A stretch of 64,000 nt of DNA from Actinomarinicola tropica (GCF_009650215.1 NZ_CP045851.1:845189-909188); one strand, 5' to 3'; positions 51,758 to 59,687 are shown, counted from the first letter of the stretch. Notes: generated by a model from the letters alone, not told the origin. A program made the numbers and translations.

Positions 51758-52267
51758 CTACGGGAAGCTGATCGTCTCGGTGGAGCCCGGGGCGACCTCG
51801 ATCGTGCCGATCTCCTCCAGCTCGTCGATGCCGGCGAAGGGGTCGTCCGGGTCGACGTAGCGAGCCCGGATGATCCGGACAGTGGCCGGGCCGCCCTCGG
51901 TCACCTCGATCTCCACGCCGCCGGACTCGATCCAGTTGGAGTACAGCTGCCAGCGGGGCCGGTCGGTGATGCTCCAGGTCGCGGACAGCGGCTGCTGCTC
52001 CTCGCCTTGCGCGACGAGCGTCGACACGACCACGGCGGTGGTGCCGGCGGGGCCGTCGACCTCGTAGCCGAACACCGCCGGGTTCTCGGCGTCGTCGCCA
52101 GCTGCTTCTTGGGTGCCCTCGTCGGAGGAGCCGCCGCTCTCGGGGCCAGCGGTCTCGGCGGCGGGGTCGGTCGCGGCATCGGCGTCGTCGCCGTCATCGG
52201 AGGAGCAGGCCGCCAGGCCGGCGACGGCCAGTGCGGAGAGGAGCAGAAGGAGCAGGCGACGGTGCAT
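51758..52267 (-). CDS. Putative lipoprotein
   Basis: The 169-residue product has a signal with lipobox AVAGLAAC (Cys21), an acidic Ser/Asp/Glu spacer, and a beta-rich domain (FGYEVDGPAGTTAVVVSTLVAQG...; ATVRIIRARYVDPDDPFAG). TGGAGGCCC precedes the ATG. It is divergent from the collagen-like operon, and the two share the direct repeats at 52309-52347. The function is unknown. The exposed domain may belong with the surface system opposite. Confidence 0.6.
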   Translation of the reverse strand: MHRRLLLLLLSALAVAGLAACSSDDGDDADAATDPAAETAGPESGGSSDEGTQEAAGDDAENPAVFGYEVDGPAGTTAVVVSTLVAQGEEQQPLSATWSITDRPRWQLYSNWIESGGVEIEVTEGGPATVRIIRARYVDPDDPFAGIDELEEIGTIEVAPGSTETISFP

Positions 52268-52308
52268 CGGGCCTCCAGGGTCTCGGTGGTGGGACCGTAC
52301 GCACGCCC

Positions 52309-52347
52309 GTGAAAGCGCGGTGAAAGCGCCCCTGGTCGGACTTTCAC
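52309..52347. promoter_or_regulatory. Operator-like repeats between lipoprotein and collagen-like operon
   Basis: GTGAAAGCG occurs at 52309-52317 and again at 52320-52328, eleven bases apart. The inverted form CTTTCAC is at 52341-52347. One turn of spacing and position in a divergent promoter suggest binding of a regulator dimer. Confidence 0.45.
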
Positions 52348-52368
52348 GCCACTCACAGGCGGCCGCCG

Positions 52369-52374
52369 TACGTT
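52369..52374 (+). promoter_or_regulatory. Leaderless -10, TACGTT
   Basis: TACGTT lies 6 nt before GTG 52381. It would drive the collagen-like operon starting with the short leader peptide. Confidence 0.45.
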
Positions 52375-52380
52375 CCGCCG

Positions 52381-52410
52381 GTGACCGACGCGCGCGGTGG
52401 TGCGGTGTGA
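52381..52410 (+). CDS. Possible nine-residue leaderless leader peptide
   Basis: GTG 52381, right behind the -10, opens a frame MTDARGGAV with TGA at 52408-52410. That TGA overlaps the GTG of the collagen-like gene (52407). The arrangement resembles the short leaderless ORFs that couple to downstream genes in mycobacteria. It could equally be chance, since the peptide is too short to test by coding statistics. Confidence 0.35.
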   Translation: MTDARGGAV

Positions 52411-53201
52411 GCGTCGCCGAGTGGATCGGCGAATGGTTGGCGTCCCTGGCGGGTGGACCTCCCGCGCCCGGGGGACCCCCGACGGGCCTCGGTCCGGGCG
52501 CCGGCCCTGGCGGCCCCGCCGGTGCCGGTGGCCCGCCACCTCCTCGCGGCCCCGGTGGTCCGGGCGGCCCCGGCGGACCGAGCGGTCCGGGTGGGCCTGG
52601 CGGTCCCGGTGGTCCCGGTGGTCCCGGTGGTCCCGGTGGTCCCGGCGGTCCGGGTGGACCTCCCCCCGGTCCGCCGCCCCCGCCCCCCGGCCCTCCTGAC
52701 GGACCAGGCCCCGACGGGCCCCCTGCGGATGGATCCACTCCCGACGGACCCCCGGGCGACGACCCCGGCGGCCCCGGCGGCCCCGGCGGTGGGGAGGACC
52801 CCGACGACGCGCCGACGATCGGCGACCTCTGGGACAGCGCGAAGAAGGCCGTGAGTGATCTCGCCGACATCGCCGACCAGGTGATCGACATCGGCCTCAG
52901 CGACAACCGCACCGCCGACGAGCAGATCGTGTGGGACGCCGCGGGGCCCAACATCGTCGACGTCGGGGTCGGCGCAGCCGGCGCGGTCGACGGCGCCAAG
53001 GGCACCCCCAAGGTTCCCGGCGCGGGACCGGTCGGGGTGGCCAACGAAGCCGTGAAGTACGGCACCGCCGGCGCCAAAGCCGTCGACACCTTCACCCGCG
53101 CCGTGAACTCCCGCACCAGCGCTGCGGACGCGGCGTACTCCCACAAGCCGGGCCGCGAGAGCAGCTCGAGCTCGGACTCCGACAGCGGGAGCGACGAATG
53201 A
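52407..53201 (+). CDS. Collagen-like Gly-Pro-rich protein
   Basis: The 264-residue protein has an amphipathic start (VAEWIGEWLASLAG). A Gly/Pro domain runs from about 16 to 130, with an uninterrupted GPG/GGP triplet run at 48-85 and a PPPPPPG stretch near 90. An Ala/Gly/Val-rich part with predicted helices (131-235) and a Ser/Asp tail follow. No signal peptide or membrane helix is seen, so how it reaches the surface is unclear. The GTG overlaps the leader stop and its own stop overlaps the PrsW start. Bacterial collagen-like proteins are typically surface fibres or spore filaments. Confidence 0.6.
   Translation: MSVAEWIGEWLASLAGGPPAPGGPPTGLGPGAGPGGPAGAGGPPPPRGPGGPGGPGGPSGPGGPGGPGGPGGPGGPGGPGGPGGPPPGPPPPPPGPPDGPGPDGPPADGSTPDGPPGDDPGGPGGPGGGEDPDDAPTIGDLWDSAKKAVSDLADIADQVIDIGLSDNRTADEQIVWDAAGPNIVDVGVGAAGAVDGAKGTPKVPGAGPVGVANEAVKYGTAGAKAVDTFTRAVNSRTSAADAAYSHKPGRESSSSSDSDSGSDE
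52602..52646. repeat. Nine-bp tandem repeat in the collagen-like gene
   Basis: Five consecutive units of GGTCCCGGT, the last ending in C, encode the GPG run. Such exact repeats allow slippage that changes the triplet number by whole codons. Confidence 0.75.
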
Positions 53202-54214
53202 GCTTCCCGCCCGTCCGGGGTCTCGCCCGCCTGCCCTGGCGGTGGATCGCCCACGTCAGCCTCGCGGTGACCGTCGTCCTCTTCGCGCTCGCCCTCCCGC
53301 AGCTCGCCGACGGCGACTGGTCGGACCTGCGCACCTCGGCGCTCCACCACGGGTGGGTCCTCGTGTGGCTCCTCGCCCTCTCCTACCTGGCGCGCTCGCG
53401 CTCCCTGCTCAACGTCCTCGGCGCGGCGATGGGCGGCTTCTTCACCGCGATGTGGATCTCGCTGACCGTCGGCGGGCGCACCGCCGAGTGGCTCGGTGCC
53501 TACGACCCGTGGCAGCTGTCGTTCGCCGTGCCGGTCATCGAGGAGGTGGCGAAGGTCGTGCCCCTCCTCATCGTCATCCTCGCCTGGCGGGGCCGGCCCG
53601 ACGGCTCGCCCGGCGCGGTCGACCTCGCGATCCTCGGCGTGGCCTCGGGTGCCGGCTTCGCGTTCCACGAGGACGCGCTGTGGTCGCGCGTGTCCGGCAG
53701 CGGCTTCGACACCCCGCTCGGATGGGTGCTGCCCACGGCGCACACCGACGCCGGGATCGTCGCCGGTCACGCCGGCTGGACCGGCATGGTGGGCCTCGCC
53801 CTGGGCATCTGGGTCGTGAACCGCCGTCGCCGGTGGACGGCACTGCTGCCCGTCGCCGCCCTCGCGCTGGCGATCGCCGACCACGGGCTGTGGAACGACC
53901 CCGTGCTGCGCGGCGACTGGCGAGCGGTCCTCCTCGACGGGTGGCTCCCCGTCGTGCTGTTCCTCGTCGGGACCGCCGTGGCACTGGTGATCGAGACCCG
54001 ACGGGTCCACCGGGCCACCGGTGGTGCCACCACCCGCCTCGCCCGCAACCTCCCGCGTCTGCTCGTCCGGTCGTGGAGCCCGTGGAACCTGGTGCTCCGC
54101 ATCGTGCGCGGCACCGGGATCATCCGCCTCTCCGCGATGACCGCCCACCAGCTCGCGTGGCTGGAGAGCGGGCCGCGCGGTGCCCGCCCCGCCACCCAGG
54201 AGGTCCGTTCGTGA
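53198..54214 (+). CDS. PrsW-type intramembrane metalloprotease
   Basis: The 338-residue protein has about eight hydrophobic helices and the conserved elements of the PrsW family: VIEEVAKVVPLL with the Glu-Glu pair, GAGFAFHEDALW, GHAGWTG and DHGLWND. PrsW cleaves anti-sigma factors in Bacillus, and relatives occur in varied contexts. The ATGA overlap ties it to the collagen-like gene and the GTGA overlap to the lipoprotein. Its role may be to mature or release one of them, which is inference. Confidence 0.75.
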   Translation: MSFPPVRGLARLPWRWIAHVSLAVTVVLFALALPQLADGDWSDLRTSALHHGWVLVWLLALSYLARSRSLLNVLGAAMGGFFTAMWISLTVGGRTAEWLGAYDPWQLSFAVPVIEEVAKVVPLLIVILAWRGRPDGSPGAVDLAILGVASGAGFAFHEDALWSRVSGSGFDTPLGWVLPTAHTDAGIVAGHAGWTGMVGLALGIWVVNRRRRWTALLPVAALALAIADHGLWNDPVLRGDWRAVLLDGWLPVVLFLVGTAVALVIETRRVHRATGGATTRLARNLPRLLVRSWSPWNLVLRIVRGTGIIRLSAMTAHQLAWLESGPRGARPATQEVRS

Positions 54215-56310
54215 CCCACCGACGTCACCTCCTCGTCCTGCTGGTCGCCGTCGCCGCGCTCGGCCTGACCGCGTGCCAAGGCGGCGATCCGTGCGACCCT
54301 CCGACCGACGGCGGACCGATCTTCAACGTGGAGCAAGCGCAAGGCGTGGCGGACTGCCCGCCACCGTGTGACGGCTGCGGGGGCGGTACGGGTGAACCCC
54401 ACCTCGTCACCTTCGACGAGCGGCGCTACGACCTGCAGTCCGCCGCCGAGCTGGTGGCTGCACGGGATCGCGACGGCACCTTCGAGGTGCAGTGGCGCCA
54501 GGAGCCCTACGGGAACCACCCGGTGGCCAGCATCACCGCCGTGGCGATGAGGATCGGCGACGTCCGGCTGTCGGTGGTCGGCGGCGACGAGGTGGTGCGC
54601 CTCGACGGTGAGGTCCTCGACCTCGAGCCGGGCGAGGGCCGCATCCTGCCGACGGGTGTCGTCGTCCACCGGCGGGACGAGCAGGTCGTGGTGACCCACG
54701 AGGCGAGCGGGTCGAGCGTCCATGTCCAGATGAGCACGTCGATGATGGGCGTCCTCATCGACCCACCCGACGAGGCCGAGGGCCGCATGGAGGGTCTGCT
54801 CGGCGACGCCGACGGCGACCCCTCGAACGACCTCGTCGGCCCTGACGGCTCCGTCCTCGACGGCGACTCGTGGGAGTCCGTCCACCCGGCGCTCGCCGAG
54901 GCCTGGCGGGTCGACGACGACTCGACCCTGTTCGACTACGAGGACGGCGCCGGCCCGGACACCTACTGGGACCCCACGTTCCCCCCGGCCCCCGTCGACG
55001 ACCTCGACGACGAGGCGCTCGACGCGGCCCGGGCGCTCTGCGCCGCGGCCGGCGTCACCGACGCTGGCCTTCTCGAGGAGTGCGCCTTCGACCTCGTCGT
55101 CACCGGCGACGCGTCGCTCGTCGACGTCTACGTCCTGCAGCAGAAGGCGATGGGCATCCCCCTCGGCGACGAGGTCGACACCGCCCCTGACGAACCGACC
55201 CTCGACGTGGTCGACGACGCGGTCGTCTGGACCGCCGTGCTCGACGACCGCTCCCGGCCGGTGTGGGGCGATGCCACCGACCGCGTCGCCCTCGTCCACG
55301 TCGAGACCGGCGACGACGGCGTCGACACGCTGATCGCCCTCGACGCCCGCAGCGGCGAGGAGCTGTGGGCCGTCGACGGGGTCGAGCCGAGCGTCCCCGC
55401 CACGATCGCCGGCGACCTCGTCGTGGTCGCCACGTCGGCCGACGGTCCCCTGGCCGGACCCGCCGGTGAGCGCGGCCTCGCCGCGCTGGACCTGGCGACC
55501 GGCGCTTCCGTCGACGAGGTGCGCTTCGAACCCGACGACGGAGAGGCCCCCATCGACACCGGCAGCACGCTCCACCTGGTGGGCGGCGTCGTCGTCCACG
55601 TCGGCAACGGGGTGGCGCGCGGCCTCGCCCCCGAGACCCTCGAGCTGCGCTGGACCACCGAGCTGCCCGGCCGCACCGACCTCGTCCCTGCGGTCGACGG
55701 CGACCGGATCTGGCTCGGCTGGCGTGACGGTGACGGCACGGAGATCGCCGTGCTCGACCCCGCGAACGGCGAGCTCACCGCCCGAGACGTCCTCGACGGG
55801 CGTCCCTCGGCGCCGACGGCGCGGGCCGTCGCCGACGGGGCGCTCGTCGTGGCGCTGCGAGGGGAGGCGACCGCATGGGTGCGCCTCGACGTCGAGGGTG
55901 ACGACATCTCGACGGCCTGGGTCCACGAGCTCGACGAGGACGAGCGGGGCGCCGATCGCCTCGCGATCTCCGGTCGATCCGTCGTCGGCTACACCGATGC
56001 CGACGTCGTGAGCGCCGTCGGCCTCGACGACGGACGTCGGCTCTGGGACGTCACGACGACCAGCTTCAACAACAACGACGAGCAGGTCGCCGCGACCGAC
56101 GGCGGCGCCACGATCGTCGGCAGCTTCGGCGGCGCCTACCTCGAGGCGTTCGACGCCGACGGCGGTGAGCTCTGGTTGCTGGATCCGAGCGACGTCGCCC
56201 GGACCGGCTCCCCGGGGTCGGTCGCCGCCCTCGGCCGTGCTGGTGATCTGGTGGTGGCGACGAGCCCCGCCGACGGGGCGGTGATCGTGGTCGCCGTCGC
56301 CCTCGACTAG
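54211..56310 (+). CDS. Lipoprotein with von Willebrand factor D domain and PQQ-like propeller
   Basis: The 699-residue lipoprotein has lipobox LGLTAC (Cys22), then a short Cys-rich segment (DCPPPCDGCGGG). The VWD domain starts GEPHLVTFDERRYDLQSAAEL and continues through GLLGDADGDPSNDLV to about residue 225. From about 300 to the end, WD/PQQ-like strands recur (LIALDARSGEELWAVDG, LAALDLATGASVDEV, AVLDPANGELTARD). It should sit on the outer face of the membrane and bind proteins or ligands. The GTG follows CAGGAGG at 8 nt. Its TAG stop overlaps that of the convergent regulator. Confidence 0.8.
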   Translation: MTHRRHLLVLLVAVAALGLTACQGGDPCDPPTDGGPIFNVEQAQGVADCPPPCDGCGGGTGEPHLVTFDERRYDLQSAAELVAARDRDGTFEVQWRQEPYGNHPVASITAVAMRIGDVRLSVVGGDEVVRLDGEVLDLEPGEGRILPTGVVVHRRDEQVVVTHEASGSSVHVQMSTSMMGVLIDPPDEAEGRMEGLLGDADGDPSNDLVGPDGSVLDGDSWESVHPALAEAWRVDDDSTLFDYEDGAGPDTYWDPTFPPAPVDDLDDEALDAARALCAAAGVTDAGLLEECAFDLVVTGDASLVDVYVLQQKAMGIPLGDEVDTAPDEPTLDVVDDAVVWTAVLDDRSRPVWGDATDRVALVHVETGDDGVDTLIALDARSGEELWAVDGVEPSVPATIAGDLVVVATSADGPLAGPAGERGLAALDLATGASVDEVRFEPDDGEAPIDTGSTLHLVGGVVVHVGNGVARGLAPETLELRWTTELPGRTDLVPAVDGDRIWLGWRDGDGTEIAVLDPANGELTARDVLDGRPSAPTARAVADGALVVALRGEATAWVRLDVEGDDISTAWVHELDEDERGADRLAISGRSVVGYTDADVVSAVGLDDGRRLWDVTTTSFNNNDEQVAATDGGATIVGSFGGAYLEAFDADGGELWLLDPSDVARTGSPGSVAALGRAGDLVVATSPADGAVIVVAVALD

Positions 56311-59300
56311 GGGTCGTCGACGACCGGGACGCCGATCTCGTCCATGGCCCGCCGGTAGGCCGTGGCCGCCGCGTCCGCCTGGCCATGGGCGCCGAGCGCG
56401 CGCAGCGCGCCGATGAGGCCCCGGTGCGCCCCCTCGTCGTAGGGGTCGAGGTCGAGCAGGTCCCGGTGGGCCTCGGATGCCACGAGGTGGTCGTCGTGCT
56501 CCTCGGCGAGCTGGGCGGCGCAGCGGAGGACGGCGGCCGTCGCGGCGTCGACCTCTCGGCGGAGGCCGTCGGCCCAGGACGCGTACGGCTCGTCCGGCAT
56601 CGCCGGGCCGCTCCGGGCGCGTCGGGCCGCGTGGAGCAGCTCGGTGGCCGCCGGGTCGTTCCGCCGGACGGCGTCGAGCGCCTCGTCGGCGGCGTCGAGG
56701 AACCTCTCGGCGTCCACGTCGACGTGTGCGGTGACGAGTCGGAGCGCACCCCCGTCGGCGGCGACGAACGTGTTCGTCGGATGGCCCCGCCCGGGATCGA
56801 GCGACCGCCGCACCGTCGAGAGCGCGACGGACAGCCGGTTCGCCAGGACCGACGGGTCCTCGTCCGGCCAGAGGAGGTCCATGACCTCCTCGCGTGGCAC
56901 GGGCGCGCCACGTCGGGCGACGAGGATCTTCAGCAGCTCCCGGGCCTTGCGCGACGTCCAGCGGGGCACGGTGCCGTCGGTGGCGACCACCTCGAAGGTG
57001 CCGAGCACCGCGACGCGAGCGGTGGGTGCGCCCGGCTCGGTGGACGGGTCGTCGGCCGTCCGCGGCGTGGGTGGGACGACGATGGCCGTGAGGGCGTCGA
57101 CCCGCTCGTCGAAGACCCGCAGCCCGCAGCGCTCGACCGTGTCGGCGGCTTCGGCCACGAGGTCGGGCAGGCGCGGGTCGTCGGTGCGTCCCAGAGCGAC
57201 GAGTGCCTCGGCCAGGTCGAGCTGGGCCTCGGTGAGCCACGGCCGGGCGCCGAGGCGGGCCGACACCTCGATGGCGTGGGCGAGGTGGGCGAGCCCCTCC
57301 TCGACGTGGCCGAGGTGGATCGCGAGCGCACCGAGCGGGCGGGCGACCGTACCCCACGTCGCCGCCCCCAGGCCGATCGGCACGACGTGGTCGGCGTAGG
57401 GGAGCAGCTCCTCCCACACCGCGGTACCGAGCTCGGGGTCGTCGACGGCCACCGCCGTCTCGGCCAGCGTGGCGAGGGTGAGGAGCGTGGCCTGGTCGTG
57501 GGGGAGCACCTTCGGCGCCGGGACCTCGGCGAGGATGCCCCGCGCTGCGTCCAGCCGCCCGGCCCGCGCCGCGAGCCACGCCAGCACCGCTTTCCACACG
57601 ACGGCGTCGGGCTCGGCGCGACGCTGCTCGACGTAGGCCGGCTCCATCTCGTCGACCCGTCCCTGCATCCAGCGGGCCACGCCCACCTGGCCCCAGAAGA
57701 CCGCCGGCCCGTCGGGGTCGCCGAGCGCCTCGGCCAGGGCGTAGCAGGACTCGGCGAGCGCGATGACCCGCTCGGCGTCGCCGTCGAGCATGGCCCGCGT
57801 CGTCCGGAACCAGAGCGCGTGGCGGGCGAAGCGGGGCGCGGCGACGGTGTCGATCACGTCGTGCTGCACGGACAGCTGGGCGTCGAGCGCGCCGACGTCG
57901 CCCCGCTCGAGCAGCGCGGCCATGAGGAGGAAGCGGCCGTGGACGAGAAGGTCGCGCTCGTCGCTCGACTCGGCCAGGGCGATGATCTCGCGCGCTGTGG
58001 CGAGCCGACGCACGAGCGTGCGGGGGCCCAGGTCGGCCACCTGCTCGGCGACGAGGGCCTGGCCGAGGGCGACCGGGTCGTCCGCGGTCCGGGCGAGGTC
58101 GACCGCGACGGCGGCGTGATCGACCGCGCCGTCGGGGTGCTCGACGAGGATCGCCGTCGCCAGCGCGGCGTGGAGCCGAGCACGCAGGGCGGTGTCCACG
58201 GCGGGCGTCGCGAGCTCGAGGGCCCGTCGGACCTGACGGCCGTGCTCGGCCGCGACGTCGCCGGAGAAGAAGAACTGGATCGTGTGGCGTGCGGCGGCTC
58301 GGGCGATGGTCACCGGGTCGTCGGTGGCGACGGCCAGCTCCCACGCCCGCCCGTAGTGCGGCTCGGCCGCGGCACGACCCGCGGTCGCCATCTCCGCTCC
58401 GGCGAGGTCGAAAGCCACCTCGAACGCGAGATCGCCCGCCTCCGTGTCGTGCGCGACGACCACCTCCCAGGCTCGGCGGAGCAGGCCGACCGCCTCCTCC
58501 GAGGCCATCGCCCGGTGGGCCACGGTCGCGGCGCGACGGCAGGCGTCGACGGCGTCGCGCCAGTGCTCTGCGCCGGCCCGCAACAGGTGGCGGGCGCGCT
58601 CCGCGGCGCGCTCCGGCGGATCCCCGACGAGGTCCGCGGCGCGGCGGTGCATGGCGGCGAGCGTCGGCCCGTCCACCGCGCGCTCGGCGGCGTCGGCGAC
58701 GAGCGCATGGGGGAACCAGCCGCCGGGGTCGGCGAGGAGGTCGGCGGCGACGGCCTCGTCGAGCGCCGGTGCGATCTCACCGCGGGGGACGCCGGCGACC
58801 GCGACCACGTCGTCGTGGGGGGCGCCCGGTCCGAGCACGGCGCGGGCGGCGAGGAGGTGGCGACCCGCGGAGGAGAGGCGCGCGAGTCGCCGGTCGAGCA
58901 CGGTCCTCAGCGCGTCGGCCGGTGAGGCGTCGGCCATCGCCTGCTCGTGCAGCAGGACCTGCTCGACGTAGAGGGGGTTGCCCCCGGTGGCCGCGAGCAC
59001 GCGCTCGACGTCGCCGGGAGCGACGCCGAGTGCCACCAGCGCGTCGCCGTCGAGCCCGGCGAGCGTGGTGCGGTCGCTCAGGTCTGCGAGCGCCTCGATC
59101 TGGTCGGCGACCTCCGGGCGGGCCGCGGCGTCGGCCTCGCGGTACGTGCCCACGACGAGGACGGGCTCCTCGCGCAGGTGGGCGGCGGCGAAGTGCAGCA
59201 GCAGGAGGCTCGCCGGGTCGGCGTCGTGGAGGTCGTCGACGACGACGAGGAGCGGGGTGCGTCGTGCGGCGTCGGCGATGACCGCGGCCGTGGCGTCGAA

Positions 59301-59687
59301 GAGCTCGAAGCGGTCGACGGCGCCGTGGTCCTCGTCGAGGACGAGCGCTGCCAGGTCCACCCCGGTGCGCCGGCCGAGCAGCTCGCGCACGATCTGGGTC
59401 CACGGCCAGTACGGGGGCGTGCTCGCCCCCTGCCAGACCTGGGCCCAGACCACCCGGTGGCCGGTGCGGCGCGCCTCCTCGGCCAGCTGGCGGACCAGGC
59501 GGGACTTGCCGATGCCGGGCTCCCCGCCGACGAGTCGGAGGCGCGGCCCGTGGCCGCCGGCGCCGGGCAGCGCCGCGGCGAGTGTGAACAGGTCGGCATC
59601 CCGGCCGACGAACGGCAGCCGCGCCGCGGGCGCACCCGTCGCCGGGACGCTGCGCATGGTGGTCCGGCGAGGACGGGCTGCGGTCAT
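56307..59687 (-). CDS. Large AAA/TPR regulator with C-terminal BTAD (SARP-like) module
   Basis: The 1126-residue protein starts with an ATPase (FVGRDADLFTLAAALPG, Walker A GGEPGIGKSRL, LVVVDDLHDADP) and a very long TPR region. A winged helix (TSRKARELLKILVARRGAPVPREEVMDLLWPDED) and BTAD domain (DPYDEGAHRGLIGALRALG) lie at the C-terminus, after about residue 880. In SARP regulators the DNA-binding/BTAD part is N-terminal and ATPase follows, so the order is reversed. It probably senses a cell signal and activates promoters nearby. The stop shares CTAG with the VWD lipoprotein. Confidence 0.8.
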   Translation of the reverse strand: MTAARPRRTTMRSVPATGAPAARLPFVGRDADLFTLAAALPGAGGHGPRLRLVGGEPGIGKSRLVRQLAEEARRTGHRVVWAQVWQGASTPPYWPWTQIVRELLGRRTGVDLAALVLDEDHGAVDRFELFDATAAVIADAARRTPLLVVVDDLHDADPASLLLLHFAAAHLREEPVLVVGTYREADAAARPEVADQIEALADLSDRTTLAGLDGDALVALGVAPGDVERVLAATGGNPLYVEQVLLHEQAMADASPADALRTVLDRRLARLSSAGRHLLAARAVLGPGAPHDDVVAVAGVPRGEIAPALDEAVAADLLADPGGWFPHALVADAAERAVDGPTLAAMHRRAADLVGDPPERAAERARHLLRAGAEHWRDAVDACRRAATVAHRAMASEEAVGLLRRAWEVVVAHDTEAGDLAFEVAFDLAGAEMATAGRAAAEPHYGRAWELAVATDDPVTIARAAARHTIQFFFSGDVAAEHGRQVRRALELATPAVDTALRARLHAALATAILVEHPDGAVDHAAVAVDLARTADDPVALGQALVAEQVADLGPRTLVRRLATAREIIALAESSDERDLLVHGRFLLMAALLERGDVGALDAQLSVQHDVIDTVAAPRFARHALWFRTTRAMLDGDAERVIALAESCYALAEALGDPDGPAVFWGQVGVARWMQGRVDEMEPAYVEQRRAEPDAVVWKAVLAWLAARAGRLDAARGILAEVPAPKVLPHDQATLLTLATLAETAVAVDDPELGTAVWEELLPYADHVVPIGLGAATWGTVARPLGALAIHLGHVEEGLAHLAHAIEVSARLGARPWLTEAQLDLAEALVALGRTDDPRLPDLVAEAADTVERCGLRVFDERVDALTAIVVPPTPRTADDPSTEPGAPTARVAVLGTFEVVATDGTVPRWTSRKARELLKILVARRGAPVPREEVMDLLWPDEDPSVLANRLSVALSTVRRSLDPGRGHPTNTFVAADGGALRLVTAHVDVDAERFLDAADEALDAVRRNDPAATELLHAARRARSGPAMPDEPYASWADGLRREVDAATAAVLRCAAQLAEEHDDHLVASEAHRDLLDLDPYDEGAHRGLIGALRALGAHGQADAAATAYRRAMDEIGVPVVDDP

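Follow-up and report, generated by a model that had tools for sequence, protein, structure and literature searches.

To our knowledge, substrates have been established for very few PrsW proteases. One of the closest described systems is PrsW/RsiW/SigW of Bacillus subtilis, in which a PrsW-family membrane protease passes on an outside signal through membrane proteolysis. The PrsW combinations known from comparative genomics of Gram-positives and actinobacteria are fusions to toxins or intracellular signalling domains (PMC3482391). Also relevant to the locus reported here are the BamB/PQQ-type propeller lipoproteins, which are lipid-anchored beta-propellers, the VWD-containing assemblies formed by FCGBP, mucins and VWF, and the actinobacterial PHO boxes, which consist of 11-nt tandem direct-repeat units, GTTCACC in Streptomyces (PMC4415409).

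The locus lies in a 64,000-nt stretch of DNA, called the window below (G000:C1:845189-909188; 73% GC), from a one-contig genome of 3.7 Mb. Its three-gene operon resembles the B. subtilis system in having a PrsW-family membrane protease and, as we propose, in relaying an outside signal through membrane proteolysis, but it contains a lipoprotein and a disordered protein instead of a sigma or anti-sigma factor gene. Since no sigma or anti-sigma domains were found among the neighbouring genes scanned, the known PrsW pathway does not appear to be reproduced here. As in the published fusions, PrsW is combined with other modules, but in the window its partners are separate genes and no toxin or signalling domain is fused to it. 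We found no open-access paper containing both 'PrsW' and 'VWD domain', in agreement with the view of a preliminary description of this DNA that no described system has this gene set. A conserved operon linking PrsW to one lipoprotein and a small partner directly names candidate substrates. It also assigns a bacterial VWD domain to a specific genetic unit for which an inducing condition is predicted, so that VWD function could be tested in a heterologous host or in a relative that can be cultivated.

All three genes are encoded on the plus strand. The first gene, g1 (52407-53201, GTG start), encodes a Gly/Pro-rich, largely disordered and probably cytoplasmic protein of 264 residues, g2 (53198-54214, ATG start) a PrsW-family intramembrane protease of 338 residues, and g3 (54211-56310, GTG start) a lipoprotein of 699 residues with a VWD domain and a BamB-like propeller. 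The end of each of the first two genes shares 4 nt with the start of the next (ATGA at g1/g2, GTGA at g2/g3), and gene order and coupled starts recur in genomes G060 and G131, upholding the earlier claim of a single operon; the three genes probably constitute a functional unit. The operon had previously been given a start at 52369, which is not a start codon and proved to be the first base of a -10-like TACGTT. A possible leaderless upstream open reading frame of 9 codons (52381-52410, plus strand) begins 6 nt past this -10 region and has a TGA stop overlapping the GTG of g1, and in G060 an upstream frame of 8 codons is arranged as in the window. This would suit leaderless initiation and translational coupling, a suggestion that is weak because it draws on two sequences only and because G060 has an SD-like AGGGG.

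The third protein carries an LTAC lipobox with the lipidation residue at Cys22, followed by a Cys/Gly/Pro-rich linker of about 35 residues, the VWD domain (residues 60-213), a Cys-containing tail and the propeller (about 335-699). Profile searches supported both the VWD domain named in the preliminary description (PF00094, E=1.2e-12, 48.8 bits against a cut-off of 22.9) and the PQQ/BamB propeller (PF13360, E=4.9e-10, 39.9 bits, cut-off 27.6). Comparison of a g3 family profile with PDB chains retrieved FCGBP (3e-55), mucin-5B (8e-13) and VWF (1.5e-7), with which g3 has VWD motifs including GEPHxxTFDxxxY and GLLGDADGD...ND in common. In contrast to these proteins, g3 is a bacterial lipoprotein with a single VWD domain fused to a propeller, and Pfam detected no C8-TIL tandem in it. 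The best Foldseek matches of the modelled propeller were BamB structures (E 3e-13), whereas the model is locally poor within the VWD part, which leaves sequence as the basis of the VWD assignment. Unlike BamB, g3 has a VWD domain ahead of its propeller and gives no evidence for a BAM-type role; its score against the BamB functional equivalog TIGR03300 was 27.9 bits, below the cut-off of 285.2.

The PrsW assignment of g2 was likewise borne out by profile search (PF13367, E=4e-18, 66.1 bits against a curated cut-off of 23.5). The protein has eight hydrophobic segments and the motifs EExxK (115-119), E158, H191 and H229/N233. Across five loci, the candidate active-site residues E115, E116, K119, E158, H229 and N233 are invariant, and H191 is present in four of the five. 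The g2 model (pLDDT 60) matched APH-1 with a Z score of 11.7 over 188 residues and Rce1 with 4.2, scores that helical bundles may reach by chance. PDB matches to Lnt and ABC transporter folds were set aside as chance-level helical matches, and a PrsW-type polymorphic toxin was rejected because g2 showed no domain besides PrsW in Pfam and NCBIfam.

The first protein had been described as a collagen-like triplet protein, and the protease had been suggested to process or release a surface or matrix component. Window g1 does contain an unbroken run of 13 Gly-X-Y triplets in which the X and Y positions are nearly all Gly or Pro and which is partly encoded by a 9-bp tandem repeat, but the corresponding stretch is (GPPPD)n with at most four triplets in G060 and Asp/Gly-rich with six in G131. 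No family match, the collagen profile included, was obtained in Pfam or NCBIfam, and by inspection no signal peptide was evident at the g1 start. The triplets stand as observed, whereas the collagen reading was rejected and a surface or matrix role of g1 is not supported. Outside the low-complexity linker, g1 has a short conserved N-terminal helix, whose start aligns between the window and G060 as MSVxExIGxWLxSLAxG, and a conserved C-terminal part whose beginning (PTxxDLxDSxKxAxxxLxDIA) and acidic end also align among relatives. Given the missing Pfam collagen match, a sensible reading of g1 is that of a cytoplasmic protein with a disordered linker between short conserved parts. Its identity between the window and G060 or G131 is 42-51%, largely over low-complexity sequence.

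Recurrence of the operon in related genomes, whose absence the preliminary description had named as refuting its reading, was confirmed in G060 and G131, which belong to one genus in another family of the same order and whose copies surfaced through Pfam profile searches, and looser layouts were found elsewhere; the operon is absent from most of the order. PrsW and VWD genes adjoin in both genomes, with a GTGA overlap at g2/g3 as in the window and g1 and g2 joined via TGATG; g1 of G131 is cut off by the contig end. Compared with the window, identity is 55-56% for PrsW and 46-47% for g3 by MAFFT (43% by BLAST). For the G060-G131 pair, Nei-Gojobori dN/dS was 0.15 for g2, 0.30 for g3 and 0.39 for the C-terminal part of g1, indicating that all three genes are under purifying selection as proteins; divergence between the window and G060 is too high for an informative ratio. 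The flanks of the G060 operon are unrelated to those of the window, so the conserved unit is the three genes. Other genes shared between these two genomes show identities of 53% (SARP), 64% (PPK) and 73% (PstS), so that operon divergence is similar to or somewhat above theirs. This is compatible with old common descent and loss, and transfer is possible; phage origin was rejected, as viral contigs contained no relatives.

Beyond these genomes, the module is rare and patchy. A search with g2 alone found relatives in none of the 58 nearest relatives, the same-genus genome G001 has no operon, only 8 among 248 genomes from the order encode VWD domains, and a wider scan of genome contigs gave a single short match, in a Kiritimatiellae MAG. 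Profile searches covering 395 genomes from the class and 396 from the phylum added two strong matches to the PrsW subfamily, in the more distant actinobacterial genomes G467 and G851, with no more full-length members in the orders around them. In total, the operon or its looser layout was found in 5 genomes among roughly a thousand searched. In G467, genes for a partly Pro-rich protein of 181 residues, for PrsW and for a 575-residue lipoprotein succeed one another, with a 7-nt gap at the first junction and an ATGA overlap at the second. In G851, the gene for a Pro-rich protein of 219 residues terminates in an ATGA that may provide the start of the PrsW gene, which is itself followed by the gene for a small lipoprotein. 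Neither lipoprotein matched a Pfam family or is related to g3, and homology of the first proteins to g1 was undetectable (hhalign E 0.09 and 0.26), so they were rejected as g1 homologues and are positional analogues only. A lipoprotein gene of one kind or another comes directly after PrsW at each of the five loci; because the G467 and G851 lipoproteins are unrelated to g3, the pairing of PrsW with a lipoprotein is more constant than the VWD domain. The G851 PrsW copy (L060:1946-3058) may be decaying, damaged or affected by an assembly error, because its reading frame is interrupted near the start and the third-motif His is Gln. Other PrsW loci of the phylum with callable genes (L061, L063-L066 and L071) have unrelated neighbours; gene calls are unreliable at some high-GC loci.

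Upstream, the operon shares a 139-bp intergenic region, as noted in the preliminary description, with a divergent lipoprotein gene (51758-52267, minus strand; 169 residues, LAAC lipobox) that matched no family above cut-off and is absent beside the G060 operon. This region holds an operator-like repeat and all three CTTTCAC copies of the 64-kb window. An exact direct repeat, CTTTCACCGCGCTTTCAC (52309-52326, minus strand; CTTTCAC-N4-CTTTCAC, 11-bp period), faces the divergent gene, 9 nt from its -10-like TACGGT (52294-52299, minus strand). On the operon side, a putative g1 promoter (52341-52374, plus strand) has an imperfect version with one CTTTCAC (52341-52347) and CTCACAG (52352-52358), followed by TACGTT (52369-52374). 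The block is partly conserved upstream of G060 g1, where the operator is also imperfect (CTTTCAG n4 CTCACAG).

In a whole-genome search for the repeat that allowed two mismatches at most, the sole other site lay upstream of pstS (two mismatches), and G060 gave three sites, one of them upstream of pstS; as a control, the pattern read backwards matched once in each of these genomes. The motif TTCACN6TTCAC did not occur in 360 kb of sampled background (18 stretches). PstS was called with TIGR02136 at E 2e-55 and 6e-57, just under the strict cut-off, and the pst region also contains ppk together with a gene for a response regulator of the OmpR/PhoB type, at about 386.8-387.5 kb of the genome. At both the operon and the divergent gene, 9-10 nt separate the final 7-mer from the -10 region. 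For the exact repeat of the pstS promoters this distance is about 32 nt, but additional 11-nt units occupy the intervening sequence, the last of them ending 10 nt before the -10. The -10 regions themselves are alike: GTACGGTCCC at pstS1 and the divergent lipoprotein gene, CCGTACGTTCCG at g1 and CCGTAGGTTCCG at G060 g1. Relative to the pstS boxes, each repeat of the operon boxes carries a single G-to-T change (CTTTCAC for CGTTCAC). Thus, the site has two 7-mers, an 11-bp period and a -10 spacing like that of the genome's own pstS in common with the actinobacterial PHO box, but with CTTTCAC instead of CGTTCAC and an imperfect operon-facing part it is a candidate operator only. From these sequences we infer that the operon promoter may be under phosphate control. 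Exact 7-mer repeats with an 11-bp period, differing in sequence, are also present ahead of the first genes of the G467 and G851 loci; the probabilities obtained by shuffling were 0.014 for G467, 0.047 for G851 and 0.019 for the window, in a test chosen post hoc, after the window repeat had been seen. As a separate observation, the tandem pstS paralogs at G000:C1 about 379100-381452 (L100:9100-11452) each have an upstream CGTTCAC-type repeat, which is exact at the second copy and has one degenerate unit at the first.

The 11-bp period, however, also fits SARP regulators, and the gene convergent with the operon (56310-59687, minus strand) is of the SARP/AfsR type; its domain order is reversed, with AAA_16 N-terminal and Trans_reg_C and BTAD C-terminal. 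Control of the promoter by this gene product instead of a phosphate regulator, with phosphate irrelevant, would agree with the reported binding of heptameric direct repeats by SARPs (PMC5930380), and BTAD regulators adjoin the operon in both the window and G467. In Streptomyces, the SARP AfsR competes with PhoP at shared boxes, where G or T at one position shifts the preference between them (PMC6988585); the G-to-T change relative to the pstS boxes may correspond to this switch. We nevertheless regard SARP control as somewhat unlikely, as the repeat-to--10 geometry and the -10 sequence resemble those of the pstS promoters and the G060 SARP ortholog (53% identity) is unlinked to the operon. This loss of linkage also led us to reject the convergent gene as an operon member.

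Taken together, these features suggest that the operon encodes a so far undescribed module for sensing or processing at the membrane. Our main reading, to which we assign a probability of roughly 0.4, is that PrsW works with a lipoprotein facing outward and with a disordered partner in the cytoplasm, and that a regulator of the PhoP/AfsR type controls all three genes. The proteins would be made from one coupled mRNA and act as a functional membrane module, possibly as a complex. On the outer face of the cytoplasmic membrane, g3 with its VWD domain and BamB-like propeller would be the binding or sensing part, and PrsW, as an active intramembrane protease, may have its cleavage tied to g3, with either partner conceivably the protein that is cut. 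The g1 protein would serve as inner partner or substrate, and its N-terminal helix may touch the membrane. An outside event would then be relayed inward through proteolysis, this direction of signalling being the presumed one. Expression would depend on an OmpR/PhoB- or AfsR-type activator at the direct-repeat operator shared with the divergent lipoprotein gene, with phosphate limitation the most likely inducing condition if phosphate control applies. In favour of the module, PrsW lies between a low-complexity protein and a lipoprotein across loci, mostly with coupled translation; against it, the g1-position proteins of G467 and G851 have no detectable g1 homology.

The main rival to the module reading, close to the idea of the preliminary description, makes PrsW a sheddase that cuts g3 near its lipid anchor and frees an adhesive or ligand-binding VWD-propeller ectodomain, with g1 regulating PrsW from inside. 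A lipoprotein gene directly after PrsW in all five loci, the typical presence of VWD domains in extracellular assembly proteins and the linker of about 35 Cys/Gly/Pro-rich residues between anchor and VWD are consistent with it. However, processed lipoproteins have no transmembrane segment, whereas RsiW, the one PrsW substrate that is well known, is an anti-sigma factor that spans the membrane (PMC3482391), and we consider shedding unlikely. Loose co-transcription, in which a membrane protease of general function and a lipoprotein for adhesion use a common promoter with no joint action, is quite unlikely: the rare, patchy distribution and the VWD-propeller lipoproteins lacking an adjacent PrsW in G100 and in a second G060 copy would suit it, but gene order and overlaps persist at about 45-56% identity amid unrelated flanks, and a protease gene followed by a lipoprotein gene is seen again where the lipoprotein is a different one.

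Returning to the module reading, a rather improbable extension would be a new PrsW-centred class of transmembrane modules in which a disordered cytoplasmic protein and PrsW are constant, the outward-facing lipoproteins are exchangeable (VWD-propeller in the window), phosphate starvation is the inducer and extracellular binding is relayed inward by proteolysis.

Several further VWD frames were observed. Larger VWD-propeller proteins, with no PrsW gene called alongside, are encoded at L023:1411-5085 (G060), with a long (SGGD)n repeat ahead of the VWD domain, and at L026:4497-7727 (G100), which suggests that bacterial VWD-propeller proteins form a wider family. Very long frames, encoding some 3,500-3,600 residues and including a VWD domain, are present at L024:1474-12324 and L025:1398-11990, in two genomes from one family of the order. 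At L004:784-3014 (G001), a VWD frame lies between a short, phospholipase A2-like reading frame containing CDWHDQCY and an ankyrin-like one, possibly representing a single gene split by frameshifts.
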